Of a stretch of 64,000 nt of DNA, positions 3,994 through 37,527 are shown piece after piece (within the stretch, counting starts at the first letter, position 1; each line of letters begins with the position of its first letter). The position numbers and the translations under genes were made by a program. The DNA is from Pseudomonadota bacterium. GTDB lineage: Bacteria > Pseudomonadota > Gammaproteobacteria > Burkholderiales > Methylophilaceae. The stretch is from assembly GCA_020053735.1 (NCBI GenBank), contig JAGVMP010000009.1, positions 1-64,000 on the forward strand, in the 5' to 3' direction. The notes under the pieces are model-generated. The model made no database searches, had not been told where the DNA came from, and saw only the letters and a program-made list of their open reading frames with translations.

Positions 3994-4032
3994 AAGCCTG
4001 CAGGCCCCATGGATATTGGCTTGCAGGGCATG
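3994..4032. repeat. 3'-end hairpin family, copy 1
   Basis: This is a member of a dispersed hairpin family with consensus TGCCCTGCAAGCC, an 11-nt loop GCATGGATATT, and GGCTTGCAGGGCA. Here the loop is CCATGGATATT, the right arm is perfect and the left arm is degenerate. It lies between the convergent hipA and rep genes and may terminate transcription from either side. Confidence 0.8.
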
Positions 4033-4069
4033 TTAATTTAATGGTTTTATAATAAATGATTTTATTTTT

Positions 4070-6103
4070 TTAATTGGTTTTACCCAGCATGGCACGAATA
4101 TTTGCCATGCGCTCTTTACCAAAATCTTTGCTTACTTCAGGGTCGTTAAACGGGTTACCAAAATGACGCACGTCGGCAGTTGGCAGCTCAGCAATAAAGC
4201 GGCTGGGCTCGCACATTTGCATTTCGCCAGCGCGTTTACGTTTTTTGCACCAAGAGATATTGAGGCTTTTTTGCGCGCGGGTGATGCCTACATACATCAG
4301 GCGCCGCTCTTCTTCGATTCTGCTTGGGTCTAATGCTCCAGCATCGATGCTTTCGCGATGCGGCAGAATGCCTTCCTCCACTCCAATTAAAAACACATGG
4401 CCAAACTCCAGCCCTTTAGCGGCGTGCAGGGTAGACAGTTTTACTGCATCGGGTTCGCCATCTTCCCTGCCTTCCAGCATGCTCATCAGCGACACCATTT
4501 GTGTCAGTTCTAGCAGGTTTTTGCCATCATTTTCATTGCCAAATTCGGTAGATGACTCACCTTTTTTAGTCAGCCAGCCTATAAATTCCAGCACATTCGC
4601 CCACTTGCTTTCGGCTACGCGCGGCTCTTCGCTATCGTATAAAAACGCTTCGTATTGAATGCTGTTTAATAAGTCATTCAGCACTTCACCAGCAGGGTCG
4701 CGCACGGCACGCGCTTGAATTTTTTGGATATATTGGCAAAAATTCAGTAAGTCATCCAGCTGCTTTTGGCCAATTTCTGCTTGAAAGTTTTGCTCAAACG
4801 CGGCTGCAAACAGTGACATTTTATGCGCGCTGGCATATTCGCCTAATCGCTCAAGCGTGGTGTTGCCAATGCCTTTTTTGGGCGTAGTGGCCGCGCGAAT
4901 AAACGCAGGGTCGTCATCTTCGTTCGCCACTAGTCGTAAGTAACTGACCAAATCCTTAATTTCGGCTTTATCAAAAAACGATTGCCCGCCAGAGATGGTG
5001 TAAGGGATTTTGTGGTTACGCAATTGCTGCTCAAACACGCGCGCTTGATGGTTGCCGCGATACAAAATGGCGTAATCCAAAAACCGTGTGCGATGCTCAA
5101 ATTTGTGCGCTTGAAGCTTCATCAGCACGCTTTCGGCTTCGGCTTCTTCGCTTTGCTGGGCAGAAACCTGAATCATGTCGCCAGTGCCTAGCTCGCTCCA
5201 CAGTTTCTTTTCGAAAAGTTTGGGGTTATTGCTGATGACTTGGTTGGCGGCTCTGAGGATTCTTACCGTAGAGCGATAATTTTGCTCCAGCTTAATGACC
5301 TTTAATTTAGAAAAGTCATCTGTCAGTTGGCGCAGATTCTCAACATCGGCACCGCGCCAGCCATAAATAGCTTGGTCGTCATCGCCCACCGCAGTAAACT
5401 GGCCACGCACCCCTGTCAGCATTTTGACCAATTTATATTGGCAGGCATTGGTATCTTGGTATTCGTCAATCAGCAAATACTGCAATTTACGTTGCCACTT
5501 ATTCAGCGCTTCTTCGTGTTGTGTAAAAAGCTCAACCGGTAGCTTAATCAGGTCATCAAAATCGACCGCTTGATAGGCGCGTAAGGTTTGCTGATACAGT
5601 TGATACACCTTGGCGGCTGCATGCGTTAAATCTTCCTCTGCCGTCGCTTTAGCTTGGTCTGGGTTAATGAAACCATTTTTCCAGTGGGAGATTTGGTATT
5701 GCGTTTTGCGTAATAGTTGCTTATCTGTGGTGGCGAGTATATCGGCCAGAATTTTGAAACTGTCACTGGCATCCAAAATAGAAAACTGGGGTTTGTAGCC
5801 CAGCAAAGCCGCCTCTTGTCGCAGCATTTGCAAGCCCAGCGAGTGAAAAGTAGCGATAGTCAATCCTTTGGTACTTTTGCCTTGCATTAGTTTGTTTACG
5901 CGCTCTTGCATCTCGCGTGCGGCTTTATTGGTAAAGGTAATGGCCGCAATTTCTTTGGGGTTGTAGCCAGCTTCTTCAATCAAATAACTAATCTTTTGTG
6001 TGATGACGCGCGTTTTACCACTGCCAGCACCTGCTAGCACTAATAATGGACCATCGAGATATTTGACTGCTTCGCGTTGTGGTGAATTTAGACTACTTAA
6101 CAT
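4070..6103 (-). CDS. rep: ATP-dependent DNA helicase Rep
   Basis: This 677-residue superfamily 1A 3'-5' helicase has Walker A GAGSGKT at residues 25-31, motif Ia (TFTNKAA), motif II DEYQDTN near 215, motif III GDDDQAIYGWRGA, motif IV QNYRST, motif V TLHAAKGLEF and motif VI VGITRAQ. Length and motif order match E. coli Rep (673 aa) better than UvrD (~720 aa). Rep removes proteins from DNA ahead of the replisome and supports restart. The 3' end has a homologous fragment at 1038-1269, so this locus borders the accessory segment. It is transcribed toward hipA, with a family hairpin between them. Confidence 0.93.
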   Translation of the reverse strand: MLSSLNSPQREAVKYLDGPLLVLAGAGSGKTRVITQKISYLIEEAGYNPKEIAAITFTNKAAREMQERVNKLMQGKSTKGLTIATFHSLGLQMLRQEAALLGYKPQFSILDASDSFKILADILATTDKQLLRKTQYQISHWKNGFINPDQAKATAEEDLTHAAAKVYQLYQQTLRAYQAVDFDDLIKLPVELFTQHEEALNKWQRKLQYLLIDEYQDTNACQYKLVKMLTGVRGQFTAVGDDDQAIYGWRGADVENLRQLTDDFSKLKVIKLEQNYRSTVRILRAANQVISNNPKLFEKKLWSELGTGDMIQVSAQQSEEAEAESVLMKLQAHKFEHRTRFLDYAILYRGNHQARVFEQQLRNHKIPYTISGGQSFFDKAEIKDLVSYLRLVANEDDDPAFIRAATTPKKGIGNTTLERLGEYASAHKMSLFAAAFEQNFQAEIGQKQLDDLLNFCQYIQKIQARAVRDPAGEVLNDLLNSIQYEAFLYDSEEPRVAESKWANVLEFIGWLTKKGESSTEFGNENDGKNLLELTQMVSLMSMLEGREDGEPDAVKLSTLHAAKGLEFGHVFLIGVEEGILPHRESIDAGALDPSRIEEERRLMYVGITRAQKSLNISWCKKRKRAGEMQMCEPSRFIAELPTADVRHFGNPFNDPEVSKDFGKERMANIRAMLGKTN

Positions 6104-6298
6104 ACTTTAATTGGACATGCTTTGAAGGATTATTTTTAACTAATTTTTTACTGGAAATTACCGCAAAATTTTTGTGGTAATAGGGGCGCCAAACTGTTTA
6201 TAGTATGATTGTATCTGCTTAATAAGTATAAGCGGTTAACTTCCCTAAATTTACAAGCAAAAATTTATAAGTGAATAATAAATTGGCGACAATTTTCC

Positions 6299-7486
6299 AT
6301 GCTTAAATTTGATTTAAAAACGATTGTTTTCATGTCGATGCTGCTCACCTTCATGCTTTCTATGCTGTTGGCGATTACACGCAAGCATCACAAAGAGGTG
6401 CATGGCCCAGGCTATTGGGCGGTAGGCAACCTAGTCATCGGGTTGGGCATGGTGCTGGTGCTGATTCAGCTAGATGTAGAAAGACTGATATTTTTACCCG
6501 GCATGGCTTTAATTGGCATGGGTTTGGGCTTGTATGTTAATGGCATACAAGCATTTAATGATCAACTGCCTAATCACCGTATTCCCATCATCGTTTTTGT
6601 GTTGCTTACGTTGATAGATACCTATTTTCTGCTAATGAATCACGATATCCGCATGGCGGTCATCCTTGCGGCGGTAATTTTTTCTGCCATCTATTTATAC
6701 TGTGCGCGGCTGACTTTTACGCGCGAAGAGGGCATTTTAGGTAACTTTTTTTGGATTACTTCTAGTTTATATTTGCTGATGGCGGTGCTTATGATAGGTC
6801 GCGCAGCATATGCCTCGCAAGTAGATGTTGAAGTGTTTGAGTCATTCGCCGCTTGGCCAGTGAATGCCTATACCTTTATGCTGGGTGCGGTTTCACAGTT
6901 TTTTATCTCCAGTTTGTTTGTGCTGATGCTGAGTTACAAGCTTAATCGTAACTTAGAATCGATTGCCACCATCGATAGCTTGACGGGTGTGCTGAATAGA
7001 CGTGGCCTAGAAGATGCCTCAGTCAAGATGCAAGATATTTGTAAGCGCATCAATTTGAGCATGGCGGTGCTGTTGATTGATATTGATTACTTTAAAAAGG
7101 TAAACGACACTTACGGCCACTTGCTAGGTGACGATGTGTTGCGGCATATCGCCAAAACCATCAGTGGTATTTTGCGTTCGAGTGATGTGCTAGGCCGCTA
7201 CGGAGGCGAAGAGTTCTGCGCATTTTTACCGAACACCACCGAGGGCGATGCATTAGGCTTGGCAGAGCGCATCCGCGCGGGTATTGAGGCCAGTCCCATT
7301 AAATTAGGGTTAAATGTGAACCTAAAAACCACAGTCAGTATCGGCGTGGCAGATTCGGTACGCGCGGGTTACGATTTTAAAGGTTTGTTAGCCACTGCCG
7401 ATAGTGCCATGTATGGCGCAAAAAATGGTGGCCGTAACCGCGTGATGAGCTATACACAAATCACGCGCGATACTAAGCAAGACTAA
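6299..7486 (+). CDS. Membrane-anchored diguanylate cyclase (GGDEF)
   Basis: The 395-residue protein begins with about seven hydrophobic segments (residues ~8-215) that form a membrane sensor domain I cannot assign to a named MASE type. A GGDEF domain follows (~225-390). The active-site signature is GGEEF at about 302-306, and an inhibitory site RSSD lies five residues before it, so it should synthesise cyclic di-GMP from GTP with product inhibition. The ligand is unknown. No EAL or HD-GYP domain is fused. It is divergent from rep, with ~195 bp between. Cyclic di-GMP may feed into type IV pilus motility encoded further along the window, but this is only an inference. Confidence 0.92.
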   Translation: MLKFDLKTIVFMSMLLTFMLSMLLAITRKHHKEVHGPGYWAVGNLVIGLGMVLVLIQLDVERLIFLPGMALIGMGLGLYVNGIQAFNDQLPNHRIPIIVFVLLTLIDTYFLLMNHDIRMAVILAAVIFSAIYLYCARLTFTREEGILGNFFWITSSLYLLMAVLMIGRAAYASQVDVEVFESFAAWPVNAYTFMLGAVSQFFISSLFVLMLSYKLNRNLESIATIDSLTGVLNRRGLEDASVKMQDICKRINLSMAVLLIDIDYFKKVNDTYGHLLGDDVLRHIAKTISGILRSSDVLGRYGGEEFCAFLPNTTEGDALGLAERIRAGIEASPIKLGLNVNLKTTVSIGVADSVRAGYDFKGLLATADSAMYGAKNGGRNRVMSYTQITRDTKQD

Positions 7487-7515
7487 ACTAAACTAGGCGT
7501 TACTATATTTGTACC

Positions 7516-9435
7516 CTAGATATGCACCCGAGAACCTAGCTCAATCACACTGTTGCTGGGGATGTTGAAATAACTCACTACGCTGCCTGCGTTACGCGAC
7601 ATCACCGCAAACAAGTTATCACGCCATTTTGCCATTTTTCCGCCAGGCCCAGAAATCACCGTTTCTCGACTGACAAAATATGAGGTGCTGAATGGGTCTA
7701 TCGTTATGTTGTCAATCTTGCAACCTTCTAATGCTTCAGGTACGTTCGGTGTTTCCATAAAGCCATAATCACATTTGACTTGCCAGAAACCAGAGCCGAT
7801 TTCTTTGATGTGTAAGCGCTGTTCACTTTCCACAGTCGGCACATCTAAAAACGCTACCGTCAATATCAAATTATTTTGATGCAGCACTTGATTGTGTTTG
7901 ATGTTGTGCATCAGCGCCTGTGGTACCGTATCTTGGTTGGCACATAAAAATATGGCTGTACGTTGGATTCTAGCTCTTTGCCCCGAACTATTATCCCGCG
8001 CTATCATGCGCACAAAGTCCTCTAGTTTTGGGTCATTTTCATGAATATTCTGCAATAAAATTTCACGGCCTTGTTTCCATGTCCACATGATGACAACCAA
8101 CCCAATACCCAAGGCCACTGGGAACCAGCCACCTTTGAAAAACTTGACTGAGCATGAAGCCAGCAGCATTAAATCTAATAAAATGAATGTGCTGGTAGCA
8201 CCTAAGGCCAACCATAATGGGTATTTCCAACTGTGGCGTAACACGAAAAAAGTCAGAATGGTGGTAATGAGCATGGTGCCAGTGACTGCGATGCCATAAG
8301 CGGCAGCAATTGCTGAAGAGTTTTGAAAAGCGATTGTGGTGATGACAACTGCGATTAATAGTAACCAGTTAATCGCGGGAATATAAATTTGGCCTGATTC
8401 ACTGGCAGAAGTATGCAGAATTTGCATTCTAGGTAAAAAGCCTAGTTGTATGGCTTGGCGAGTAATAGAGTAAGCACCAGAAATTACCGCTTGTGAGGCA
8501 ATAATGGTGGCAAGGGTTGCCAATATAACGGCTGGAATAAGCAGCTCTTGCGGAAAGGATAAGTAGAACGGATTGCTAACAGCGGCAGGTGTTGATAGCA
8601 GCAAAGCACCTTGACCTAAATAGTTAAGTGCTAATCCTGGCAAAACTAAACCTGTCCATGCAATGCGAATAGCAGGTTTGCCAAAGTGCCCCATGTCTGC
8701 GTACAGTGCCTCTGCACCTGTAATCGCAAGTACCACTGCACCTACTGCTAAGAAAACACCTGCGCCACGGTCTGCTAAAAAATTAAATGCATACAATGGG
8801 TTAAGTGCTTGTAGTATTTCAGGGTTCTGCAGAATGTGCGATATGCCTACTGCACCTAAAGTCACAAACCATACGACAATAATCGGGCCAAAGAACTTAC
8901 CCACCATATCGGTACCAAACTTCTGAAACATAAACAGCGCGATTAAAATAGCGATAGAAATAGGCATGATAAATGACGAAAGCCCAGGTGTAATAAGCTC
9001 TAAGCCCTCAACTGCTGAAAGCACGGAAATGGCGGGGGTTAATATGCTGTCCCCATAAAAAAGAGCGGCACCAAAAACACCTAAACCTAGCAATATTTTT
9101 TTACGCATGGGCGCCGCAGATGCAGTAGAAATGGCTAAGGCGAGTAAAGCCATGACACCACCTTCACCACGATTATCCGCGCGTAAAACCAGCACAACAT
9201 ATTTAAGCGTCACTACTAACATTAACACCCAAAATATAGCGGAGATTGCACCAATAATATTGGCCTGCGTAAGTGCGATGCCAGTAGATGCGCCAAATAT
9301 TTCTTTAACCGTGTAAAGCGGACTAGTGCCAATATCGCCATACACTACGCCAATGGCACCTAAGGTGAGAGCTGCAACACTTTTTGACTGTATATTTTGT
9401 GCTTGTGAGTTGTCTAGTTGTATGTATGTATGCAT
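7516..9435 (-). CDS. kup: Kup/TrkD low-affinity potassium transporter
   Basis: This 639-residue protein has the Kup family start [26 protein letters not shown], about twelve membrane segments through residue ~450, and a cytoplasmic C-terminal domain ending with the conserved [17 protein letters not shown]. Kup takes up potassium in symport with protons, mainly at low pH or in hyperosmotic conditions. The length is typical (E. coli 622 aa). Downstream in transcription is the GGDEF gene in convergent orientation (29 bp apart). Upstream, across a repeat-bearing gap, lies a KdpDE-like pair on the same strand, so the two-component system may influence kup. Confidence 0.95.
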
Positions 9436-9770
9436 GATAATTTTAAAATGACTCTTTAAAGAATTAAGATATAGTCATTAAATCAGGGTGGGTATATCAA
9501 TCGCATAAACATGCAAATAACAGACCCAAAACAACATGCTCTGCAACCAAGTATCCATGCGGGTTCCTAAGCCTGTTTTTTTGTTTACTTTGTTAAATAC
9601 CTTTAAACCGTCATTCTGAGTGGCCTTTAGCCGCGAGGGCTTAGCCCGTGGCGGGAAGAGTCCAGTTTTTACATCTTCAAACTTCTGGATTCTTCACCTA
9701 TAAAAACCACAGGTTCAGAATGACGGGTGAGATTTTTGGATTTGCAGGAACGGCTTGTTGCCGCGAAAAC
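9436..9770. other. Gap between kdpE-like gene and kup, holding an inverted-repeat element
   Basis: This 335-bp gap contains the kup leader (AT-rich, 9436-9520) and an inverted-repeat element at 9608-9726. I see no coding potential, and no promoter could be placed with confidence. Confidence 0.6.
9608..9726. repeat. 119-bp palindromic element with GTCATTCTGA ends
   Basis: Perfect 12-bp terminal inverted repeats, CCGTCATTCTGA (9608-9619) and its complement (9715-9726), enclose two smaller imperfect hairpins: a GC-rich one around 9629-9655 and GAAGAGTCCAG/CTGGATTCTTC around 9655-9696. This matches the general build of widespread small non-autonomous repeats in proteobacteria. No coding sequence is inside. 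Confidence 0.8.
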
Positions 9771-10460: not shown

Positions 10461-10462
10461 CA

Positions 10463-12031: not shown

Positions 12032-12190
12032 ATTGATGTGCCTAGTTTATCTAATAAATCAGATATTACCGTTTGAGTATATCAATCGCATAAATAAGAA
12101 GCTAGGCTATAAATCAGGTGTTCTAGTAATGAAAATTGTATTTTTTATATAAAAAGATAACAAAATGCATGGCACAAGGCATAAAATATC

Positions 12191-12310
12191 TATTCACGCA
12201 TTAAGCAAGATAGATATGTGTGTGAGTACGGCGTATATTCGATGCGCTTGCTTGAGCATCAAGCCGATAGCGATGATGGGATTTTAAAGTGCCAGACGAC
12301 ATTTTGGTAG
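12191..12310 (+). pseudogene. Relic of a class III cyclase C-terminus, out of frame with the next gene
   Basis: Frame 2 from 12191 reads YSRIKQDRYVCEYGVYSMR. This aligns residue for residue with YSGVKHDKHVREHEVYSVR near the end of the cyclase domain of the 402-residue protein encoded at 13266. The frame continues through SDDGILK to a stop near 12310, overlapping the GTG start of the next gene in another frame. The rest of the cyclase domain is absent, because only ~160 bp separate this point from kdpD. The upstream paralog therefore lost its catalytic domain by deletion and its junction by a frame change. Confidence 0.75.
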
Positions 12311-14474: not shown

Positions 14475-14488
14475 TGCAGAGCACATAC

Positions 14489-14518
14489 AAAAAAGCAGCT
14501 AAAAAAGCTGCTTTTTTG
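14489..14518 (+). terminator. Rho-independent terminator of the cyclase gene
   Basis: The arms AAAAAAGCAGCT and AGCTGCTTTTTT form a strong hairpin with a short A-rich loop, ending in a T-run, 15 bp after the stop codon. The A-run on the other side makes it potentially active in both directions, although ylqF ends further away. Confidence 0.9.
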
Positions 14519-14559
14519 TTTGCATATTAATGTTAAAACATTAACCTTTCATTTTGCAT

Positions 14560-14594
14560 CGCTGGAATCCGCATGAATATTGGCTTACGGAGCG
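14560..14594. repeat. 3'-end hairpin family, copy 2 (degenerate), carrying the ylqF stop codon
   Basis: The loop GCATGAATATT matches the family consensus at all but one position and is followed by GGCTTACGGAGCG. The arms have decayed. The ylqF stop codon (14585-14587, minus strand) lies inside the right arm, so the element forms the last codons of that gene. It lies between convergent genes. Confidence 0.65.
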
Positions 14595-15529
14595 TCTTCA
14601 TGCTCTCGGCTGATAGCCTCTGGATTTTCTCGATTATTTTCCAAGGTCGATTTGTCAAAGCTCTGCATCATCGCATCGCGACTTTGTGGTGACTCTAAAC
14701 TAACACGGCCAATCGCACCGCTACGGTAATCCGTCAGAAAAGCCACCGCGGTTTTTTCGGTATCCCATAATCCATCATGCCGCTTGTAGCTGCGGCGTTT
14801 GGCAATGGCTTCCAGTAAATCCACACCGTCAATCGCATTCACATCAATTTTCATGGCGTCCAACTTATAGCGGGCATTCAGCAAAGCAGGGTAGGTTTTG
14901 AGCAAATTATCTGCTAAAAATAACGCCACATCTTCATCAATGACTGCGTTGCGTCCAATGGCATGGCTGGCAGCCAACATATAGCCATCGCTTTCATAAG
15001 CGATTTTTGGCCACATCATGCCAGGTGTATCGGTAATGCTCATGGTTTCACTTAAATCAAAACGCTGCTGGCTTTTAGTCACTGCAGGTTCATCGCCCAC
15101 CTTGGCCACACGACGATTCAGTAAGGCGTTCATCAGCGTGGATTTACCAACGTTTGGGATGCCCATAATCAGCATGCGTAACGGCTTTAAGTGTGTGCCG
15201 CGGTGCGGTGCCAGCGCAAGACATAGTTTAGGGATTTTGCTGGCATCGCCTGGTTTTTTGCAAGATAGCGCTACCGCTTTGGTGTTAGGTTGTTTGTTGA
15301 AATAATTCAGCCAGTCTTGGGTGATTTTTGGGTCGGCAAGGTCGGCTTTATTGAGGATTTTTAAATTGGGGCGCTGCCGAAACAGACGCATCTCGTTAAT
15401 CACGGGATTGTGAGAGGCTTCTGGCACGCGCGCGTCTAGCACTTCAATCACAATGTCGACAAACTCCATGGTTTCTTCCGCTTTTTTGCGGGCTTGGGTC
15501 ATATGACCCGGGTACCATTGAATTGCCAT
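14585..15529 (-). CDS. ylqF: Ribosome biogenesis GTPase YlqF/RbgA
   Basis: The 314-residue protein begins MAIQWYPGHMTQARKK, the classical start of the circularly permuted YlqF family. Motif order is G4 NKAD (~59) before G1 GIPNVGKST (~123-131) and G3 DTPG (~167). It helps a late step of 50S subunit assembly. The length is typical of the GTPase plus C-terminal RNA-binding region (Bacillus RbgA 282 aa). The ribosome binding site GGAG lies at the outer edge of a long inverted repeat (15535-15637), which may limit its translation. The gene ends in a copy of the dispersed 3'-end hairpin. Confidence 0.92.
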   Translation of the reverse strand: MAIQWYPGHMTQARKKAEETMEFVDIVIEVLDARVPEASHNPVINEMRLFRQRPNLKILNKADLADPKITQDWLNYFNKQPNTKAVALSCKKPGDASKIPKLCLALAPHRGTHLKPLRMLIMGIPNVGKSTLMNALLNRRVAKVGDEPAVTKSQQRFDLSETMSITDTPGMMWPKIAYESDGYMLAASHAIGRNAVIDEDVALFLADNLLKTYPALLNARYKLDAMKIDVNAIDGVDLLEAIAKRRSYKRHDGLWDTEKTAVAFLTDYRSGAIGRVSLESPQSRDAMMQSFDKSTLENNRENPEAISREHEDAP

Positions 15530-15534
15530 GTTGG

Positions 15535-18685: not shown

Positions 18686-18710
18686 ACACATCAAATTATA
18701 AAATACATGG

Positions 18711-18745
18711 CCTGTAGACCGCATGGATATTGCCTTACATGGCAT
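18711..18745. repeat. 3'-end hairpin family, copy 3 (degenerate arms)
   Basis: The loop GCATGGATATT is identical to consensus, while the arms (CCTGTAGACC and GCCTTACATGGCA) have lost much of their pairing. It follows the methyltransferase gene and precedes hrpA on the same strand, the only copy not between convergent genes. Confidence 0.7.
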
Positions 18746-23948: not shown

Positions 23949-23989
23949 AACAGCTTTATAAAAGTGCCGCCATTCTAAATTCGTGTACT

Positions 23990-24028
23990 GCTCTACAGGC
24001 AATATGGATATTGGGCTGCGGGGCAGAT
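23990..24028. repeat. 3'-end hairpin family, copy 4
   Basis: The core AATATGGATATT is followed by GGGCTGCGGGGCAG, with a left arm CTGCTCTACAGGC. The arms pair imperfectly. It sits between the convergent tonB-like gene and metR, consistent with a bidirectional terminator or boundary element. Confidence 0.7.
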
Positions 24029-27355: not shown

Positions 27356-27372
27356 GTTAATTCATTCACACT

Positions 27373-27551: not shown

Positions 27552-27612
27552 GGGAATTTAATTAAATAAAAATTCTTTATAAAACATATATATAGAAATT
27601 ATTTTAAAGAAT

Positions 27613-27660
27613 TATCAATATATTGTGTTTTAATTGTTGAAATCCCCCGCTATATTGCGT
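27613..27660 (+). promoter_or_regulatory. Pair of NrdR-box-like sites at the nrdAB promoter
   Basis: Box 1 (27613-27628) matches 13 of 16 positions of the NrdR consensus (core CAATATATTGTGT). Box 2 (27645-27660, core CTATATTGCGT) matches about 11 of 16. Their starts are 32 bp apart, three helical turns, which is the spacing seen for NrdR box pairs. Box 2 lies between the -35 and -10 elements. NrdR is a dATP/ATP-sensing repressor of ribonucleotide reductase genes; its gene is not in this window. Confidence 0.65.
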
Positions 27661-27666
27661 TATAGT
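27637..27666 (+). promoter_or_regulatory. Predicted sigma-70 promoter of nrdAB
   Basis: TTGAAA at 27637-27642 and TATAGT at 27661-27666 are separated by 18 bp. The predicted start near 27673 coincides with the first base-paired part of the cobalamin riboswitch. Confidence 0.6.
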
Positions 27667-27672
27667 TTGCAA

Positions 27673-27881
27673 ATACGGTTCTTGAGTTTCAGTCGAAATT
27701 CAAGATAAAAGGGAATCCGGTGCGAGGTTTGTACCAGTTTTAATTAGCTGGCAAATTTCAATTCCGGGGCTGCCCCCGCAGCTGTAATCAGCGAGTCATT
27801 TTGTATTTCTTTGCCACTGAGTGTGAATTCGGGAAGGCTAGCAAAATGATGAAGACCTGAAAGCCAGAAGACCTGCCGTAG
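27673..27881 (+). ncRNA. Cobalamin (B12) riboswitch ahead of nrdAB
   Basis: The conserved elements appear in order: GGGAATCCGGTGCGAG (27711-27726), the GCTGCCCCCGCAGCTGTAA core (27770-27787), GCCACTG (27812-27818), GGGAAGG (27831-27837) and the B12 box AGCCAGAAGACCTGCCGT (27862-27879). The outer ACGGTT/GCCGT ends can close P1. B12 riboswitches normally reduce expression when adenosylcobalamin binds. About 200 nt lie between the aptamer and the nrdA start. They contain a TTTTGCATGCAAAA palindrome (27902-27915) and a possible stem (27937-27945 with 27991-27999) that could be parts of the expression platform. Confidence 0.93.
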
Positions 27882-28078
27882 CACTTTTTTGCGTGCCTTA
27901 ATTTTGCATGCAAAAGTAATTTTTATAACGTTTGAGGCGGGGTGTCCTCGGCAGATGGAGTGGCTATTTGGTATATTTAATATATAACAGCGCTCCGCCA
28001 TGCTGGTCTTTATTAAACAAGCGACTTTTGTCATTGTCAATAAAGCGTACCTGCCCTTTATTAAAAAGGGAAAACCAA

Positions 28079-30913
28079 ATGGATGATATTAGACCATCAC
28101 CGAACAGTACATTAGGCACTGATTCAACACAATCCACACTATCGCCTATGTTGCAGGTGATTCGCCGTAACGGCGCCGCTGTAGCATTCACTCTCGATAA
28201 AATCTCGATTGCCATCACCAAGGCGTTCTTGGCGGTAGAAGGCAATCAAAGCGCAGCGTCGCAACGCGTACGTGACCAAGTAGCTACCTTGAGCCAGTTA
28301 GTGAATAACGCGTTAATTCGTCGCCTGCCTGCTGGTGGCTCTATCCATATCGAAGACATTCAAGACCAAGTTGAATTGGCGTTGATGCGTAACGGCAACC
28401 ACGATGTAGCACGTGCTTATGTGCTCTACCGTGAGAAGCGTAATGCCGAGCGTGCCGCTGAAAAAGCGATGACTGGCGAACCTAGCCATGCGCTCAACGT
28501 GAATATGGGCGGCAAAGCGGGTGAAAATTTGGTGCCGCTCAATATCAAGCAACTGAATGACATGATGGCAGAGGCCTGTTTGAACCTAGGCAATGAAGTC
28601 GATGTGAATCTGGTGGTGGAGCAGGCAGTCCGCGATTTATACGATGGCATCCCCTTTAGCGAAGTGTATAAAGCGCTGATTTTATCTGCACGTAGTTTGA
28701 TTGAAACTGAGCCAGCCTATAACTATGTGACTGCACGTTTGCAGCTGGATCTGGTGCGTGCCGAAGTGCTTGGCGAGCGTGTCAGTCATGCTGAAATGGA
28801 TGCGCACTATGTGGATTACTTCCCACGCTATATCAAGATTGGTATCGGTGCAGATTTGCTGGACCCACGTTTAGCCCAATTTGATTTGGATAAACTTGCA
28901 AAATCATTAGTCAAAGAGCGCGATTTCCAATTCGGCTATCTAGGTATTCAGACCCTGTATGACCGCTACTTCTTACACATCGAAGAGCGTCGTATCGAGT
29001 TGCCGCAAATTTTCTTCATGCGCGTGGCGATGGGCTTGGCGATTAACGAGATTGACCGTGAAGCGTGCGCAATCGAGTTCTATAACGTATTGAGCACGTT
29101 CGATTTTATGAGTTCAACGCCAACTTTATTCAATGCTGGCACATTGCACTCACAGCTTTCTTCTTGCTACCTTACCACGGTGAGCGACGACTTGGATGGT
29201 ATCTACCAAGGCATTAAAGAAAATGCGCTGTTGCAAAAATACGCAGGCGGTTTAGGTAACGATTGGACGCCAGTACGCTCGCTAGGCGCGCGCATCAAAG
29301 GTACCAACGGTAAGAGCCAAGGTGTGATTCCATTCTTGAAAGTGGTAAATGACACTGCTGTAGCGGTAAATCAGGGTGGTAAGCGTAAAGGTGCGGTGTG
29401 TGGCTACTTGGAAACTTGGCATCTGGATATTGAAGAATTTTTAGACCTGCGTAAAAACACCGGTGATGATCGCCGCCGCACACATGATATGAATACCGCG
29501 CATTGGATTCCTGATCTATTTATGCGCCGCGTGACTGAAGCTGGTGATTGGACATTGTTCTCGCCATCTGATGTACCAGATCTACATGACAAATATGGCA
29601 AAGCCTTCGAAGCCGCTTACGTTGAATATGAGCGTCGCGCCGATAATGGTGAAATCAAGCTATTCAAGCGTGTGCCAGCTTTGCAAATGTGGCGCAAGAT
29701 GCTTTCGATGCTGTTCGAAACTGGTCACCCTTGGATTACTTTCAAAGACCCATGCAATATTCGTTCACCACAGCAACACGTGGGCGTGGTACATAGTTCA
29801 AATCTATGCACAGAAATCACACTAAATACTTCTGATACGGAAATCGCTGTGTGTAACTTAGGTTCCGTCAATTTATTGCAGCATTTAACAGAAGTTAAAG
29901 GTAATTTAGTGTTAGATAACGACAAGTTGCAAGCCACGATTAAAGTCGGTATGCGCATGTTGGACAACGTTGTAGATATCAACTTCTACCCGGTAGGCAA
30001 GGCGCGCAACTCCAATACACGCCATCGTCCGGTGGGCATGGGCATTATGGGTTTCCAAAATTGTTTGCATGCCATGCGTATTCCGTACGCCAGCATGGAA
30101 GCGGTTGAGTTCGCCGACCGCGCCATGGAAATGGTGTGCTACAACGCTTATTGGGCATCTACCGTGTTGGCAGAAGAACGTGGCCCGTACTCTAGCTTTA
30201 AGGGTAGTTTGTGGGACCAAGGCATTCTGCCATTAGATACGCTAGATTTGTTGTTAAGTGAACGTGGCGGCAATGTGGAGGTGGATAGAAGTAAGACGCT
30301 AGATTGGGACGCTTTGCGCAGCCGCATTCAAAAGGTCGGCATGCGTAACTCAAATTGTGTAGCAATTGCACCTACTGCGACAATTTCTAACATTGTCGGT
30401 GTGTCAGCTAGCATTGAGCCTGAATACCAAAACCTGTATGTGAAATCTAATTTATCAGGTGAATTCACGATTGTGAATGAACAACTGGTTAATGACCTGA
30501 AAGCACGTGGCTTGTGGGATACGGTCATGGTGTCAGACTTGAAGTACTTCGACGGTTCATTGGCACCGATAGACCGTGTACCGGCAGACCTGAAACAGCT
30601 TTATGCGACTGCGTTTGACGTTGATCCAAGCTGGTTGATTGAAGCTGCTGCACGCCGCCAAAAATGGATAGACCAGGCGCAATCACTCAACCTGTATTTC
30701 GCGGTGCCTTCTGGCAAAAAACTTAACGATACGTATCTATTGGCTTGGCAACGTGGCCTGAAAACGACTTATTACCTACGTTCGTTAGGGGCAACAGCGG
30801 CTGAGAAATCAACCGGCAGCGGTGGTGAGTTGAATGCGGTTGCATCAAGTGCCCCGGAACCGGCGCCGAAGATGTGCAGTATTGACAATCCAGAATGCGA
30901 ATCTTGCCAATAA
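28079..30913 (+). CDS. nrdA: Class Ia ribonucleoside-diphosphate reductase, alpha subunit
   Basis: From the ATG at 28079, preceded by AAGGG, the protein is 944 residues; the open frame extends upstream into the riboswitch leader, which is not coding. An N-terminal ATP-cone (~20-110: VIRRNGAAVAFTLDKISIAITKAFL) gives dATP control. The catalytic barrel has STPTLFNAGTLHSQLSSCYL, the NLCTEI active-site segment, and PTATISNIVGVSASIEPEYQN. The C-terminal redox tail ends CSIDNPECESCQ. It reduces NDPs to dNDPs using the tyrosyl radical of NrdB. Expression is predicted to be controlled by NrdR-like sites and B12. It is followed 14 bp later by nrdB. Confidence 0.95.
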   Translation: MDDIRPSPNSTLGTDSTQSTLSPMLQVIRRNGAAVAFTLDKISIAITKAFLAVEGNQSAASQRVRDQVATLSQLVNNALIRRLPAGGSIHIEDIQDQVELALMRNGNHDVARAYVLYREKRNAERAAEKAMTGEPSHALNVNMGGKAGENLVPLNIKQLNDMMAEACLNLGNEVDVNLVVEQAVRDLYDGIPFSEVYKALILSARSLIETEPAYNYVTARLQLDLVRAEVLGERVSHAEMDAHYVDYFPRYIKIGIGADLLDPRLAQFDLDKLAKSLVKERDFQFGYLGIQTLYDRYFLHIEERRIELPQIFFMRVAMGLAINEIDREACAIEFYNVLSTFDFMSSTPTLFNAGTLHSQLSSCYLTTVSDDLDGIYQGIKENALLQKYAGGLGNDWTPVRSLGARIKGTNGKSQGVIPFLKVVNDTAVAVNQGGKRKGAVCGYLETWHLDIEEFLDLRKNTGDDRRRTHDMNTAHWIPDLFMRRVTEAGDWTLFSPSDVPDLHDKYGKAFEAAYVEYERRADNGEIKLFKRVPALQMWRKMLSMLFETGHPWITFKDPCNIRSPQQHVGVVHSSNLCTEITLNTSDTEIAVCNLGSVNLLQHLTEVKGNLVLDNDKLQATIKVGMRMLDNVVDINFYPVGKARNSNTRHRPVGMGIMGFQNCLHAMRIPYASMEAVEFADRAMEMVCYNAYWASTVLAEERGPYSSFKGSLWDQGILPLDTLDLLLSERGGNVEVDRSKTLDWDALRSRIQKVGMRNSNCVAIAPTATISNIVGVSASIEPEYQNLYVKSNLSGEFTIVNEQLVNDLKARGLWDTVMVSDLKYFDGSLAPIDRVPADLKQLYATAFDVDPSWLIEAAARRQKWIDQAQSLNLYFAVPSGKKLNDTYLLAWQRGLKTTYYLRSLGATAAEKSTGSGGELNAVASSAPEPAPKMCSIDNPECESCQ

Positions 30914-30927
30914 TTAAGAATTAAGGA

Positions 30928-32070: not shown

Positions 32071-32089
32071 CATAAGAAAGCTGAATTTC

Positions 32090-32134
32090 ATGCCCTGCAA
32101 GCCGCATGGATATTGGCTTGCAGGGCATTTTTTT
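32090..32134 (+). terminator. 3'-end hairpin family, copy 5, perfect and followed by T-run
   Basis: The arms TGCCCTGCAAGCC and GGCTTGCAGGGCA pair perfectly over 13 bp around the loop GCATGGATATT, and a run of seven T follows. It ends nrdAB and lies between convergent nrdB and the COG0523 gene. As the best-preserved copy it gives the family consensus. Confidence 0.9.
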
Positions 32135-32141
32135 AAGTATT

Positions 32142-33143
32142 TTAAACCTGCATTAATGTTTTTCTAATCGCCGCTTCATCTAACCCTTTGCCAATCACCA
32201 CGATGCGATTGCTGGGCTCATCTTCACTCCACCCTTCCAACAAGGTTGGCGGGTATGGGGTGAAGTGTACAGCATGAATTGCCAGTGGCGCGGGCTGGTC
32301 AGCCGCATGGATAATACCTTTTAGGCGCAATAAATCTTTACCGTGAGTTTGGCACAGCTTTAAAATAGCGGGTTTTAAATCGCGCCAATGGATTGGGCTG
32401 GGCAGCGTGACAGTGAAGCTATCAATCTCGGCATGCTGATTTTTTAGCATGCTTGTCACCTTAACAGGCGCGCGTAACCAGCGTTGCGGTTCAGCGTGCT
32501 TGCCTGAGGGGTCAAACAAGCCTACATCAATAATAAAGTCCGGCTCAATTTTGCCCATGCTGATTTTATGCTGGGTGGCGCCAGGGTTGATGGTAATCAG
32601 TTTTTCTTTTAAGTTAGATAGTAGTTCAGGCGTCGCTAAATCGGTTTTAGTCAGCAGTAATACATCGGCTACTGCGGTTTGTTTGCGAGCCTCTAAATGT
32701 TCATTGAGTTGCTGCAATCCATATTCGCTGTCCACTGTTACCACCACTGCATCTAACCTAAATACGCTCTCAATGACTGGTTCGTTCAGCAAATTGCCTA
32801 AAATCGGGCCAGGGTCGGCCATGCCGGTGGTTTCGATAACAATGCGATTAAATTGCGGAATGGCTTGCAGTGCGCGCTTAAAAAATAAATCGCGCATGGT
32901 GTCAGCCAGCTCGTTTTTCAGCGTACAACAGACACAGCCACTGCTTAATAACACGGCGTTATCAGAAATCTGTTCGCTATCCACTTGGGTGGCCAGAATG
33001 TGGTCTAGCCCAGTTGTACCCAGCTCATTGATGATGACAGCACTATCTTTCATCGCGGGTTGTGCCAGCAAGTGATTCAACAGTGTGGTTTTGCCTGAGC
33101 CTAAAAAACCAGTCAGTAAAGTAACGGGTATACGATTATCCAT
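32142..33143 (-). CDS. COG0523-family (CobW/YjiA) metal-linked GTPase
   Basis: The 333-residue protein has a G3E GTPase fold. Walker A is GFLGSGKTTLLNHLL (residues ~12-26), the family metal-binding motif is CVCC in SSGCVCCTLKNEL (~69-74), and there are ETTGMADPG and LLTKTDL (G4) motifs. A CobW C-terminal domain follows (~210-330, with RLKGIIHA). Family members deliver zinc, cobalt or iron to client enzymes. No histidine-rich loop is present. It is convergent with nrdB and divergent from the RNB exonuclease gene (48 bp). The substrate metal cannot be read from sequence. Confidence 0.88.
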   Translation of the reverse strand: MDNRIPVTLLTGFLGSGKTTLLNHLLAQPAMKDSAVIINELGTTGLDHILATQVDSEQISDNAVLLSSGCVCCTLKNELADTMRDLFFKRALQAIPQFNRIVIETTGMADPGPILGNLLNEPVIESVFRLDAVVVTVDSEYGLQQLNEHLEARKQTAVADVLLLTKTDLATPELLSNLKEKLITINPGATQHKISMGKIEPDFIIDVGLFDPSGKHAEPQRWLRAPVKVTSMLKNQHAEIDSFTVTLPSPIHWRDLKPAILKLCQTHGKDLLRLKGIIHAADQPAPLAIHAVHFTPYPPTLLEGWSEDEPSNRIVVIGKGLDEAAIRKTLMQV

Positions 33144-33191
33144 TGTGGTATTTTATCAGAGAGCTTACTAAAGCCATGTAAAATAGCGCCT

Positions 33192-35138
33192 ATGAATATA
33201 TTTTACGAAGAAGAAGGCCAGTTTAAAGTGGCAGCGGTGATGACCGATAACGCAGGTTCGCTGCAGGTAGAGTCTGTCAGCGGTAAACGCAGCAAAATAA
33301 AGGCGGCCAATGTGCTGTTGCGGTTTGAACATGTGCTGCAAGGCTTTATGTATGCAGCGGCTGGCGAGGCCGAAAAACTAGATGTGGAGTTTTTGTGGGA
33401 ATGCAGCAGCGAAGCAGAGTTTGGTTTTGAAGATTTAGCCGCAGAGTACTATGGAAAAAAACCAAGCCCAATTGAAGCGGCAGCAACGGCAATTAAGCTG
33501 CACAGCGCCCCCATTTATTTTTACCGCAAGGGCAAAGGCCGCTATAAAGCGGCGCCAGCTGAGACCTTAAAGTTAGCGCTTGCCGCGGTGGAGCGCAAAA
33601 AACTACAAGCCGAGCAAATGGCGGTTTGGGTGCAGCAGCTCAATAATAAGACTTTGCCAGAAGCCTTTATGAATAAGGCAGATAGCCTAGTTTATAACCC
33701 CGATAAAAACTCGCTAGAGTGGAAAGCGATAGACGAGGCTGCACAAACTTCTGGCAGGTTGGCGCTGACAGTTATGCATGATTGTGGGCTGATTCACAAC
33801 GCACACGATTATCACTTAGGTGCGTTTTTACGCGAGATGTTTCCACAGAAAACTGGTTCAGATAAGAATGGCCCAGATAACGATGGTCAGGCAGGCACGG
33901 ATTTTACAGCGTATGACCTACCCAAAATCCCTGACGATTTGCCGCTAGCAAAGGTGGCCTGCTTTAGTATTGATGATGCGACCACCACCGAAATTGACGA
34001 TGCGTTTAGCCTCGAAGCTTTACCCAATGGCAATACGCGCGTAGGTATTCACATTGCAGCGCCAAGCTTAGCGGTGCTACCAGATAGCGCCTTAGATGCC
34101 ATGGTGCTTAGCCGCCTTTCTACGGTATATATGCCAGGCAATAAAATCACCATGTTGCCAGATGATGTGGTGAAGCCTTTCAGCTTGGATGCAGGTGAAA
34201 CTAAGCCTGCCTTAAGTTTGTATGTAGAAATGACGCCAGCATTTGAAATTATTGCCAATGAAACCAGGCTTGAAAAGATTAAAGTAGCAGCCAATCTGCG
34301 CCATGATGCATTAGAACCATTCTTTAATGTGAACACCTTAGCCGCCGACAGTGGCCATGTCTATTGGCCGCAACTGAGGTGCTTGTTTGAGTTTGCTGAA
34401 AGTTTGGAAAAGGCACGCGGTAAGCATAACCCCAATCAAACGCCGCAAATTGATTACAACTTTTATGTGACGGATGGCATTGTTAAAATCGTCGCACGTG
34501 AGCGTGGAAGTCCCATGGATAAGCTAGTGGCTGAGTTGATGATTTACACTAATAGTCACTGGGGCGGGCTACTGAAAGAAGCCAATATTGCGGGTATTTA
34601 CCGTGCGCAAACTGGTGGCAAAGTGTTTATGACACATGTCGCCGAGCCGCATCAGGGCTTGGGTGTGGTGCAATATGCTTGGTGTACTTCGCCTTTAAGA
34701 AGAGCGGTCGATTTAGTCAATCAGCGCCAGTTGATTGCGATGTTGAATCAACAAACCGCACCTTACAACGCAGCAGACGGCAAATTGAATGTCATCATTC
34801 GCAACTTTGATCAAACCTATAACGCTTATAGCGAATTTCAAACCCGCATGGAGCGCTACTGGTGCTTGCAGTATTTGATTCAGGAATACTTATCTAAAAA
34901 CCAGACGGAAGTGACTGCGACGATTTGGCGGGACAACTTGGTGCGGATTGACGGCATGTTTTACATTACAAAAGTGCCCAGCCTGCCAGAGTTGAAAGTT
35001 GGTACAAAAGTATTATTAGAAATCAAGCACATAGACACCTTGTTAATGGAGCTGAATTGTAAGTTTAAAGCGGTGATTGAAACAGCTGTTATTGAAACTG
35101 CCGAGATAGAAACCATCGAAGAAAGTATAGAAATTTAG
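33192..35138 (+). CDS. RNB-domain exoribonuclease (RNase II family)
   Basis: The 648-residue protein has a poorly conserved N-terminus (~1-215) and an RNB catalytic domain from about 230. The metal-binding aspartates are in FSIDDATTTEIDDAFSLE. Further RNB motifs are STVYMPGNKITMLPDDV, YNFYVTDGIVKI, MDKLVAELMIYTNSHWG and YAWCTSPLRRAVDLVNQRQL. It belongs to a group lacking obvious cold-shock domains at the N-terminus, so it is not a canonical rnb or rnr. It should degrade RNA 3' to 5'. It heads a four-gene operon. Confidence 0.87.
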   Translation: MNIFYEEEGQFKVAAVMTDNAGSLQVESVSGKRSKIKAANVLLRFEHVLQGFMYAAAGEAEKLDVEFLWECSSEAEFGFEDLAAEYYGKKPSPIEAAATAIKLHSAPIYFYRKGKGRYKAAPAETLKLALAAVERKKLQAEQMAVWVQQLNNKTLPEAFMNKADSLVYNPDKNSLEWKAIDEAAQTSGRLALTVMHDCGLIHNAHDYHLGAFLREMFPQKTGSDKNGPDNDGQAGTDFTAYDLPKIPDDLPLAKVACFSIDDATTTEIDDAFSLEALPNGNTRVGIHIAAPSLAVLPDSALDAMVLSRLSTVYMPGNKITMLPDDVVKPFSLDAGETKPALSLYVEMTPAFEIIANETRLEKIKVAANLRHDALEPFFNVNTLAADSGHVYWPQLRCLFEFAESLEKARGKHNPNQTPQIDYNFYVTDGIVKIVARERGSPMDKLVAELMIYTNSHWGGLLKEANIAGIYRAQTGGKVFMTHVAEPHQGLGVVQYAWCTSPLRRAVDLVNQRQLIAMLNQQTAPYNAADGKLNVIIRNFDQTYNAYSEFQTRMERYWCLQYLIQEYLSKNQTEVTATIWRDNLVRIDGMFYITKVPSLPELKVGTKVLLEIKHIDTLLMELNCKFKAVIETAVIETAEIETIEESIEI

Positions 35139-35142
35139 CGCA

Positions 35143-35946
35143 ATGTTTAGGTTTAACCGCAAAATCCATAAAAGTGTGTCCGAGTTTGCCACGGTCGAGG
35201 TGATTGAAGGGGATGGCGTGCGCTCATTGTATTTGGGCTCGGTGACTATACAAAGCAGCATGCGCACCAAAGCGCCATTTGCACTAGAGTTAGCCTATTC
35301 GCGCGGTATGATGTGCTTTTTGCTATTCACAAAAACTGCCAAGCATGTGCTGAGTATTGGCTTGGGTGGCGGTTCTGTGCCAAAGTTTATACATGCATTT
35401 TGCCCAGAAATCACACAAACGGTGGTGGAAATCAATCCGCAAATCATCGCTACTGCGCGCAGTCATTTTTTTGTGCCAGATAATGACGAAAGACTGAATA
35501 TTATTGAAGGTGACGGTCTCGCATACTTGGCCAATCATCCAAACAGCAGCGATGTGCTGATGATAGATGCGTTTGACAGTGTCGGTATTCCGCCTGATTT
35601 TTGCAGCCAAGACTTTTTTGATCGTTGTGAGCATGTTCTGTTGCATGACGGCATTTTTGTCATTAACTTGTGGGGCAGTGACAAAAACTTTGATATTTAT
35701 TTGCGGCGCATTGAGCAAAGTTTTGACAATCAAGTATTGATGCTACCAACAGGTAAGCCAGGCAATATAGTCGTGTTTGGTTTTAAGGCCGCGCCGGTAC
35801 AAACAATCACACAACTGCGAGAGCGTGCAAAAATGCTAGAAGCGCAATTTGAAAAGCCGCATCAAATCGAATTTTTAAGCTTTTTAGAAAAGCTGTGTGA
35901 ACATAACTCACACAATAATACTCAGTTTTTTATGGATAGAAGATAA
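35143..35946 (+). CDS. Spermidine synthase-like Rossmann protein
   Basis: The 267-residue protein has the SpeE-type fold: HVLSIGLGGGSVPKFI (SAM-like binding loop), VVEINPQIIATAR, IIEGDGLAYL and DVLMIDAFDSVGIP. The length is close to SpeE (~285 aa), but several polyamine-binding residues cannot be confirmed and the N-terminus is short. It is therefore a spermidine-synthase-like protein that may or may not use putrescine. Its start lies 4 bp after the RNB gene stop, so the two are coupled. Confidence 0.75.
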   Translation: MFRFNRKIHKSVSEFATVEVIEGDGVRSLYLGSVTIQSSMRTKAPFALELAYSRGMMCFLLFTKTAKHVLSIGLGGGSVPKFIHAFCPEITQTVVEINPQIIATARSHFFVPDNDERLNIIEGDGLAYLANHPNSSDVLMIDAFDSVGIPPDFCSQDFFDRCEHVLLHDGIFVINLWGSDKNFDIYLRRIEQSFDNQVLMLPTGKPGNIVVFGFKAAPVQTITQLRERAKMLEAQFEKPHQIEFLSFLEKLCEHNSHNNTQFFMDRR

Positions 35947-35947
35947 T

Positions 35948-37105
35948 ATGTTGAACCAATATTTTGCAACTTGCCCACGTGGTCTAGAGGCGCTACTGAC
36001 CAATGAAATTAAGGTAGCTGGCGCTAAAGACATCAAACCCACCGATGGCGGCGTGGCGTTTGCAGGCGAGCTGGCAGTGTGTTACAGCGCTAATTTACAT
36101 TCGCGTATTGCCACCCGAATTTTAATGCAAGTCGGGCAAGGCAGATACGCGACTGAAGATGACCTATATCAGGCGGCATATAAAATAAACTGGCCGAATT
36201 GGTTTGATGTGAAGCACGATTTTATGGTGAAGGTGACTGGCGTAAAATGTCCACTAAAAAGCCTGGAATTTGCTACTTTGCGCATTAAAGATGCGGTGTG
36301 TGACAAGTTCAGGCAAGTGGTTGATTCGCGGCCTTACATTGATACGAAAACGCCTGCGGTGCGTATTCATACTTATTTGACTGCAGAAAATTATCAGTTT
36401 TATGTGGATACTTCTGGCGACGCGCTCTATATGCGTGGCAACCGCAAAGCCAGTATCGAGGCGCCTTTGCGTGAGAATCTTGCTGCGGGTATTTTGCAAC
36501 TAAGTGGTTGGCAAGCGGGGCAGCCATTACTAGACCCCATGTGTGGCAGCGGCACCTTTTTGTTAGAGGCAGCCATGATGGCGCTGAATATTGCACCAGG
36601 CCTGCATAGAAGTTTTGGCTTTGAAAAACTGAAAAATTACGAGAGCGACACTTGGAAAAAAATTAAAAATACCGCGCTAAAAAATGCTAAACCAGTCAGC
36701 TTTCAAAAACTCTATGGCAGCGATGTGGATTTGCGTGCGGTGCGCGTGGCGCGTCAAAACTTAAGTGAAGCGGGGCTGTTAGAGGCAGTGCAACTCACGC
36801 AGGTGGATATCACCGCAGTGATTCCGCCTGCCGATAGTGGCGTACTGGTTGCCAACCCACCATATGGGGTGCGCATAGGCGAAGACGAAGAGTTGGCGTT
36901 ACTGTATCCAAAAATGGGTGAGGCGCTAAAGCGCAAATTTGCGGGTTGGAACACTTATTTTTTAACCAACGATATGCGCTTGCCAAAGCTGATGCGGCTT
37001 ACCCCCAGCAAGCGCACTCCGTTATTTAATGGACCTCTGGAGTGTCGATTGTTCGAGATTAAAATGGTGGCGGGCAGCAATCGTAAGGAGAAGGAGCATG
37101 GCTGA
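35948..37105 (+). CDS. THUMP-domain class I rRNA methyltransferase (RlmL N-terminal type)
   Basis: From the ATG at 35948 (1 bp after the previous stop) the protein is 385 residues. It has an N-terminal ferredoxin-like/THUMP RNA-binding region (~1-155, beginning YFATCPRGLEALL) and an UPF0020 methyltransferase domain (~160-375) with LLDPMCGSGTFLLEAAM, YGSDVDLRAVRVARQNL and the catalytic NPPYG. It corresponds to the first half of E. coli RlmL, which makes m2G2445 in 23S rRNA; the second (RlmK) half is absent. The site is inferred. Confidence 0.85.
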   Translation: MLNQYFATCPRGLEALLTNEIKVAGAKDIKPTDGGVAFAGELAVCYSANLHSRIATRILMQVGQGRYATEDDLYQAAYKINWPNWFDVKHDFMVKVTGVKCPLKSLEFATLRIKDAVCDKFRQVVDSRPYIDTKTPAVRIHTYLTAENYQFYVDTSGDALYMRGNRKASIEAPLRENLAAGILQLSGWQAGQPLLDPMCGSGTFLLEAAMMALNIAPGLHRSFGFEKLKNYESDTWKKIKNTALKNAKPVSFQKLYGSDVDLRAVRVARQNLSEAGLLEAVQLTQVDITAVIPPADSGVLVANPPYGVRIGEDEELALLYPKMGEALKRKFAGWNTYFLTNDMRLPKLMRLTPSKRTPLFNGPLECRLFEIKMVAGSNRKEKEHG

Positions 37106-37466
37106 TTCTTTGCAAGATTTACGCGCACGCGTGAATCAATTTGTGGCAGAGCGCGATTGGGCACAATTTCACACACCCAAAAATTTGGCCATGGCCATGA
37201 TTGTGGAGGCAGCAGAATTAGTGGAGCAGTTTCAATGGGATACCCCACAAGAAAGCCAACAGTTATCGCCAGAAAAGCGTGAGGCAGTGAGTCATGAACT
37301 GGCAGATACCTTTGTATATTTGCTTAGAATTGCCGAAGTACTAGAGATTGATTTGATTCAGGCAACCAATCAAAAAATTGACCTGAATGCACTTAAGTAT
37401 CCAGTTGAAAAAGCCAAAGGTAGTAACGCCAAGTACACAAAATATAAGCATACTGAATATCAATAA
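37098..37466 (+). CDS. MazG-like nucleotide pyrophosphohydrolase
   Basis: From the ATG at 37098 (AAGGAG ribosome binding site, 8-bp overlap with the preceding gene) the protein is 122 residues. It has the MazG/RS21-C6 metal-binding pattern EAAELVEQFQW…HELADTFVYLLRIAEVL. Such enzymes hydrolyse non-canonical or excess (d)NTPs to monophosphates. It closes the four-gene operon, and a family hairpin follows. Confidence 0.85.
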   Translation: MADSLQDLRARVNQFVAERDWAQFHTPKNLAMAMIVEAAELVEQFQWDTPQESQQLSPEKREAVSHELADTFVYLLRIAEVLEIDLIQATNQKIDLNALKYPVEKAKGSNAKYTKYKHTEYQ

Positions 37467-37487
37467 ATATACTGCGAGCTTAAAATA

Positions 37488-37527
37488 ATGCCCTGCAAGC
37501 CAATATCTATAAGGCTTGCAGGGCAGG
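37488..37527. repeat. 3'-end hairpin family, copy 6 (opposite orientation)
   Basis: The arms TGCCCTGCAAGCC and GGCTTGCAGGGCA are perfect. Read on the minus strand the loop is TTATAGATATT, sharing the GATATT half with the other loops. It lies between the convergent MazG-like gene and tpx. Confidence 0.85.

Follow-up and report, generated by a model that had tools for sequence, protein, structure and literature searches.

A repeated motif, here called motif A, occurs eight times in a stretch of 64,000 nucleotides from a Methylophilaceae genome (contig JAGVMP010000009.1 of assembly GCA_020053735.1, positions 1 to 64,000; this whole stretch is called the window below). Our analysis suggests that motif A is probably, though far from certainly, a DNA uptake sequence (DUS) or uptake signal sequence (USS) of a system outside Neisseriaceae and Pasteurellaceae. 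The excerpts of the papers cited here, on which all our comparisons with published uptake sequences rest, treat such sequences in those two families. The features considered are copies in genes that show no insertion, an antisense bias, terminator use, A/T tracts, motifs bound to clades and a ComP-family pilin. Uptake sequences fit this combination best, and because of it we rank them above a mobile repeat, a terminator family and a chromosome-organising site. We infer the uptake function, the receptor identity and the termination activity from sequence comparison.

The preliminary description of this DNA had listed a family of six hairpins, and all six are present at their claimed sites, with 37-bp cores from 3994-4030 to 37489-37525. 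The family was drawn too small, as it missed two copies on the reverse strand, at 9537 and 48579. Five of the six do lie between convergent open reading frames (ORFs), as had been stated, and the copy given at 18711 is a tandem one. The eight copies, each placed by consensus and matrix score, are the following.

3994..4030, + strand: motif copy, convergent intergenic, hairpin with 10 of 13 pairs
9537..9573, - strand: motif copy missed earlier, intergenic, between tandem genes
14558..14594, + strand: motif copy, convergent, weak stem with 8 of 13 pairs, overlapping the 3' end of ORF 14585-15529
18708..18744, + strand: motif copy, intergenic, between tandem genes
23989..24025, + strand: motif copy, convergent intergenic
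32091..32127, + strand: consensus copy, perfect 13-bp stem followed by a T run, convergent intergenic
37489..37525, - strand: reverse-oriented motif copy with a perfect stem of 13 bp, convergent intergenic
48579..48615, - strand: motif copy missed earlier, antisense inside dnaE (ORF 48133-51624), encoding ALQANNHAASG

A chance origin of these sites is excluded, because the eight outscore shuffled sequence and are recovered by a matrix trained outside the window, the reversed window being empty. When the 37-bp consensus was scored on both strands, eight distinct sites had 27-37 of 37 matches; the next distinct site had 24, which was also the best score in 20 shuffled windows. With 94 copies from beyond the window as its training set, the matrix gave the same eight sites at 24-74 bits and the next one at 9.5 bits; in the reversed window no score exceeded 0. 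No Rfam family matched at the motif sites at gathering scores.

The family extends over the window's own genome (G000, 2.44 Mb). The 24-mer made of the loop and the right arm (GCATGGATATTGGCTTGCAGRGCA) has 104 copies in G000 at no more than three mismatches, 50 forward and 54 reverse, and its reversed-pattern control has none. A sequence-only profile built from 48 copies has at least 150 matches, all with E-values of 2.2e-4 or better, and extrapolation gives ~300 copies in total if the window density (8 per 64 kb) holds. The preliminary description had made its idea depend on many copies elsewhere in the genome, and these counts bear it out. Like DUS and USS, motif A is over-represented on both strands and spread genome-wide; the number of copies per large contig is near expectation except for contig C1 (16 vs 7.0). 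Outside the masked copies, weaker matches (16/24 or better) number 61, compared with 3-28 for twelve controls; when the limit is relaxed to 13/24, one of the controls has more matches than motif A. No further short high-copy motif of comparable strength was found in ~0.34 Mb of G000 with motif A masked.

We compared 104 distinct copies matching the 24-mer at 19/24 or better. Ninety-six of them match at 21/24 or better and represent 96 of the 104 places found with the 24-mer; the other eight are weaker (19-20), and five of these lie in the window. The consensus, TTAAAATAGM-TGCCCTGCAAGCC-GCATGGATATT-GGCTTGCAGRGCA-TCTWTTTT, forms a dyad, and A/T-rich tracts lie ~6 nt outside each arm; within the consensus the core GCATGGATATTGGCTTGCAGRGCA is conserved and the left extension CYRNARSCC is looser. 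The left arm, loop and right arm hold 15.7, 18.0 and 20.1 bits of information in 62 intergenic copies and 9.9, 17.7 and 20.3 bits in 35 in-gene copies. Inside genes it is mainly the left arm that is given up. The conservation of the loop and right arm is partly due to construction, since the compared set was selected on those columns, while the left arm and the tracts are free of this bias. The eight window copies match the consensus at 79 of 88 loop, 90 of 104 right-arm and 77 of 104 left-arm positions, so that the loop is better conserved than the stem, as previously claimed, with respect to the left arm only, the right arm being conserved alike. In seven copies (L007, L016, L017, L041, L043, L068 and L077) a second, AGCTGGTTATTC-like repeat abuts the left side of the motif; it forms a small hairpin of its own in several of them, and the left arms of these seven motif copies deviate.

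With ORFs called mechanically, 62 of the 104 compared copies are intergenic, 40 lie in ORFs and two are partly inside (59, 36 and one for the 96 stronger copies). The claimed placement at gene 3' ends therefore applies to the intergenic copies and fails for the 40 inside reading frames. The 59 classed intergenic copies comprise 29 convergent, 27 tandem and 3 divergent ones. Their convergent share of 29/59 compares with 32 of 216 junctions in 400 kb of the related genome G022 and 6 of 27 in the window (convergent, tandem and divergent junctions 32/148/36 and 6/13/8, respectively), and the suspected 3'-end bias is thus confirmed among intergenic copies. Fourteen of the 27 copies between tandem genes are co-oriented with transcription and 13 are opposed to it, so the asymmetry of the loop is unrelated to transcript sense.

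At the 3' ends of genes, the intergenic copies combine a stable stem with T-rich DNA behind it, as intrinsic terminators do. The median folding energy of the 37-mers is -17.1 kcal/mol for intergenic copies, -8.7 for in-gene copies and -5.2 for random window pieces, and 45 of 62 intergenic copies fold at -12 kcal/mol or below vs 13 of 39 in-gene copies. On average 5.8 T occur within the next 10 nt after the intergenic copies. The intergenic copies are hence good candidates for bidirectional intrinsic terminators, and uptake sequences co-opted as terminators have been described (PMC1852404; PMC2397512). Motif A could in principle be nothing but ordinary intrinsic terminators, with a sequence common to them via gene conversion or chance. 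The strong folding and the preference for convergent 3' ends agree with this, and pairing exceeds the expectation for independent columns at two positions of the stem (-10/+20 and -4/+14), though not at most others. However, a terminator does not need a conserved 11-nt loop, the orientation is even with respect to transcription, and the copies in ORFs have largely lost the hairpin but kept the loop and right arm. We consider this explanation most improbable.

The in-gene copies were counted at 21/24 or better (n=35), leaving out four copies below 21/24 and L039, an ORF of 116 aa that is probably not a gene. We found that 27 of the 35 are in antisense orientation (p=0.002), and that 26 of these 27 use one frame, giving xALQANIHA-like peptides in unrelated proteins. 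Published uptake sequences likewise favour one orientation in genes (PMC2346458).

Fourteen in-gene sites could be compared with homologues. Six of them align gap-free (DnaE, MurG, TrpD, L045, L069 and L082) with homologues that lack the motif; the product of L045 is, by our own reading, MoaA-like. The alignments of the remaining eight (L011, L048, L073, L075, L076, FabD, HrcA and FolC) are gapped at the site or next to it, by 3-10 residues in total; in L011 it is the G000 protein that is shorter, and in FabD a 4-residue gap lies immediately ahead of the core. None of the 14 has an insertion of 12 or more residues, the length of the element. Excluded from the 14 were L002 (two sites), L003, L008, L013, L052 and L061, because the relatives in their alignments have the motif themselves or had been retrieved on account of it, L022, with its site in an N-terminal extension, the window copies at 42854 and 62605 (19/24 only) and the distant paralogue rows of L048 and L073; the PDB alignments for L002 and L003 did not span the motif site. 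The DnaE site aligns gap-free to E. coli Pol III alpha and 13 same-genus relatives, and intermediate states are seen there, from ALSAGN-like in motif-poor species through ALGANNHAAAG or ALQANQHGAAG in others to ALQANNHAASG in G000. Published USS also arise through point mutation and not as inserted elements (PMC7811141). Recognition by a protein, which the preliminary description had considered, gains support at the DNA level, as the loop and one arm are kept where the hairpin is lost and the in-gene copies look built by substitution.

These comparisons also bear on a mobile origin, in which a repeat of the REP/MITE type (repetitive extragenic palindromic; miniature inverted-repeat transposable element) or the Rickettsia palindromic type would insert between genes and in frame within them. 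REP elements and bacterial interspersed mosaic elements with REP-associated tyrosine transposases (RAYT) resemble motif A as short palindromic intergenic repeats at 3' ends. Rickettsia palindromic elements are palindromic and have in-frame copies in unrelated genes, as motif A has, but they are insertions. The palindromic consensus, the common frame and peptide of most in-gene copies, the left-flanking repeat of seven copies, the patchy occurrence among genera (below) and the small gaps in eight of the 14 comparisons are what such a repeat could leave. Unlike REP systems with RAYT, G000 has no match to Y1_Tnp (PF01797), a family with matches in 5 of 14 control genomes, and many in-gene copies show no insertion of element length; this latter point, which concerns in-gene sites only, also separates motif A from the Rickettsia elements. 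The intermediate states in DnaE speak against insertion as well. Two exact patterns had no match in a collection of viral contigs (the phage collection was not searched), and blastn of the 37-mer against a plasmid collection gave none. We therefore find no support for the REP/RAYT origin that had been suggested earlier and reject mobile insertion at the compared in-gene sites, and we hold a mobile repeat of any of these types to be very unlikely.

Of 150 family genomes, 32 contain the 24-mer at least once; within the window's genus, 10 of 15 genomes have 11-104 copies and the other five have one each. A family-wide profile search, in which 38 candidates were scored per genome under stricter filters, gave matches in 41 of the 150, with a patchy distribution over other genera (at least 38 in G136, 34 in G138, 19 in each of G145 and G133, and 0-3 in most others). 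A search for exact 23-mers, with each species represented by a single genome (84,980), yielded 59 stretches, whose titles name Methylotenera (36), Methylophilaceae (5) and other Pseudomonadota (18, 15 of them unclassified). Genome G095, of the window's genus, has 21 copies in 20 loci, and all 12 alignable to compared G000 DNA coincide with a G000 copy, as do both of the alignable copies among the 21 of G136; since the compared G000 DNA surrounds its own copies, these numbers indicate positional conservation and give no retention rate. In a midpoint-rooted DnaE tree of 14 same-genus genomes, the five motif-poor ones fall on one side of a single branch (100/99).

This sister clade is nearly without motif A, and four of its five genomes carry another abundant motif, called motif B here, consisting of ASTTAAC and two A/T tracts. 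In 400 kb of the motif-poor G022 the top over-represented words are ACTTAAC/AGTTAAC and ACTTAACAC (38 vs 3.5 expected), and the matrix has ASTTAAC with A/T tracts spanning positions +10 to +15 and +21 to +27. The published layout of the Haemophilus USS is likewise a core with two A/T tracts (PMC7811141). The 400 kb (loci L187-L206) contain 245 motif B sites vs 21 in reversed sequence at 14 bits and 164 vs 4 at 18 bits, counted with a matrix iterated on the same sequence; extrapolation gives ~1,000-1,450 copies in the G022 genome. Of 86 in-gene sites tried against G000, 21 were alignable and 15 of these gap-free. G000 itself has five motif B sites at 16 bits in ~0.34 Mb. Counts of ACTTAACAC are 219, 194, 175, 73 and 32 in G022, G050, G089, G038 and G068, respectively, and no more than 52 in any of the other 145 genomes. 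The motif-A-rich G116 has a raised count (52 vs 15 for the reversed pattern), possibly from traces of both motifs.

The motif pair is relevant to a third explanation, that motif A is a genome-wide site of another DNA protein acting in chromosome organisation, segregation or regulation, which was co-opted at gene ends. The length of the motif, its dyad-like form, the A/T tracts at either side, a spread over large contigs near expectation except for C1 and the lack of strand bias would suit such a site. Its ~38 bits over the loop and right arm even in genes, a value inflated by column selection, would exceed what such a protein ordinarily needs; copies between divergent genes are rare (3/59); and the sister clade has an unrelated, more abundant motif of USS-like layout. 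On balance we find this explanation unlikely, but worth keeping in view.

An uptake sequence needs competence machinery, and G000 has ComEC, DprA, HHH_3, a ComP_DUS (PF16732) pilin and GspH/FimT. Among 15 same-genus genomes, 13 have ComEC, members of both clades included, and 14 have GspH/FimT, while DprA is in all four and HHH_3 in three of the four genomes tested. The ComP_DUS pilin is present in 13 of the 15, in both clades, and is the only one of these families absent from all 14 controls. Its gene adjoins the GspH/FimT gene in G000 and G022, and the gene that comes next in G000 matches PilV below the cut-off. A seeming clade difference in the ComP-like C-termini rests on one branch, with three rows missing and one row being a neighbouring pilin, and we make no claim from it. 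The FimT alignment, with two rows missing and some rows from a neighbouring pilin, discriminates nothing.

We propose that motif A would let cells recognise DNA of their own kind and take it up during natural transformation. These cells would belong to one clade of the window's genus (Methylotenera or a close relative, in the Methylophilaceae) and to some related lineages. A type IV pilus minor pilin, for which the ComP_DUS-family pilin beside the FimT-like gene is the candidate, would bind motif-bearing double-stranded DNA. The uptake bias together with homologous recombination would then raise matching sites genome-wide, and these would build up in genes where the codons tolerate them and reach a higher density in the intergenic DNA at 3' ends. 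In that DNA an inverted left arm would match the right arm, and many copies may double as bidirectional intrinsic terminators.

Several observations count against an uptake function. The copy number (104 to at least 150, or ~300 by density) is below, and the 24-bp core far longer than, that of Neisseria and Haemophilus uptake sequences, which have 1,000 and more copies and cores of 9-12 bp (PMC2346458; PMC1852404). The alignments support a substitution origin for some copies but not for every one, because eight of the 14 comparisons are gapped; many Neisseria DUS have been argued to arrive via recombination and not point mutation (PMC2397512), and our in-gene alignments cannot distinguish between these two routes. 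Motif B, besides being counted on the sequence that shaped its matrix, lies in ORFs at 122 of 245 sites with 66 antisense and 56 sense, and this lack of orientation preference, unlike published uptake sequences, slightly lowers our confidence. The mutual exclusion of motifs A and B rests on a single branch, in G068 of the motif-poor clade neither motif is strong, copy number within genus g7 ranges from 0 to at least 38, and 200 kb each of G006 and G019, from two other genera, contain no comparable motif. ComEC, DprA, HHH_3 and GspH occur in the E. coli control as well. The best PDB relatives of the ComP_DUS pilins are geopilin and PilE/PilA-type pilins, which is why their role as receptor is put forward as a proposal.

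Motif A resembles the USS of Haemophilus and other Pasteurellaceae in its genome-wide presence on both strands, its in-gene copies that are not insertions and prefer one orientation, the A/T tracts beside the core, the co-option in terminators and the clade-specific types. It differs in its unrelated sequence, 24-bp core, smaller number of copies, Methylophilaceae host and hairpin, which an inverted half-motif builds around a fixed centre of 11 nt, and its uptake role is one proposed here. Motif B is closer to the Haemophilus USS in layout, with ASTTAAC, an A/T tract, a spacer and a second A/T tract. Neisseria, with ComP as DUS receptor, is a betaproteobacterial host, as the one here is, and shares terminator use at gene ends and the pilin family. 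Unlike motif A, its DUS have 10-12 bp, and DUS terminators consist of closely spaced complementary signal copies (PMC1852404); DUS dialects keep an inner core, whereas motifs A and B are unrelated to each other.

A broader statement, which we make tentatively and doubt about as readily as we believe it, is that Methylophilaceae are a third family with self-DNA uptake sequences, having undergone a wholesale motif change within one genus (one clade with a hairpin-capable motif of 24 bp, the other with an ASTTAAC motif that is unrelated to it and has USS-like A/T tracts), with the ComP-like/FimT minor-pilin operon as its likely seat. Our literature searches on uptake sequences or signals, natural transformation and palindromes in Methylotenera and Methylophilaceae gave nothing on the subject, and those on uptake sequences in Betaproteobacteria turned up only Neisseria, most subscription journals lying outside the coverage. 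On the question of how uptake specificity originates and shifts, a further family, in methylotrophs, with two unrelated motifs in sister clades that have a corresponding pilin locus in common would, if the statement is true, open receptor-motif co-evolution to direct testing. It would also provide a readable sequence signature for gene-exchange barriers between closely related species.

Other elements were noted during the analysis. G000 has a separate family of short repeats with the words CGGGAATCCA/CGGGAATGAC (~10 copies in 0.34 Mb), and G019 (loci L289-L298) has one around GCCCAAAGTAGAGCCC, with words occurring 10-12 times in 200 kb. The window also contains a cobalamin riboswitch at 27659-27894 on the + strand (Rfam RF00174, 109.9 bits), located upstream of ORF 27932-30913.

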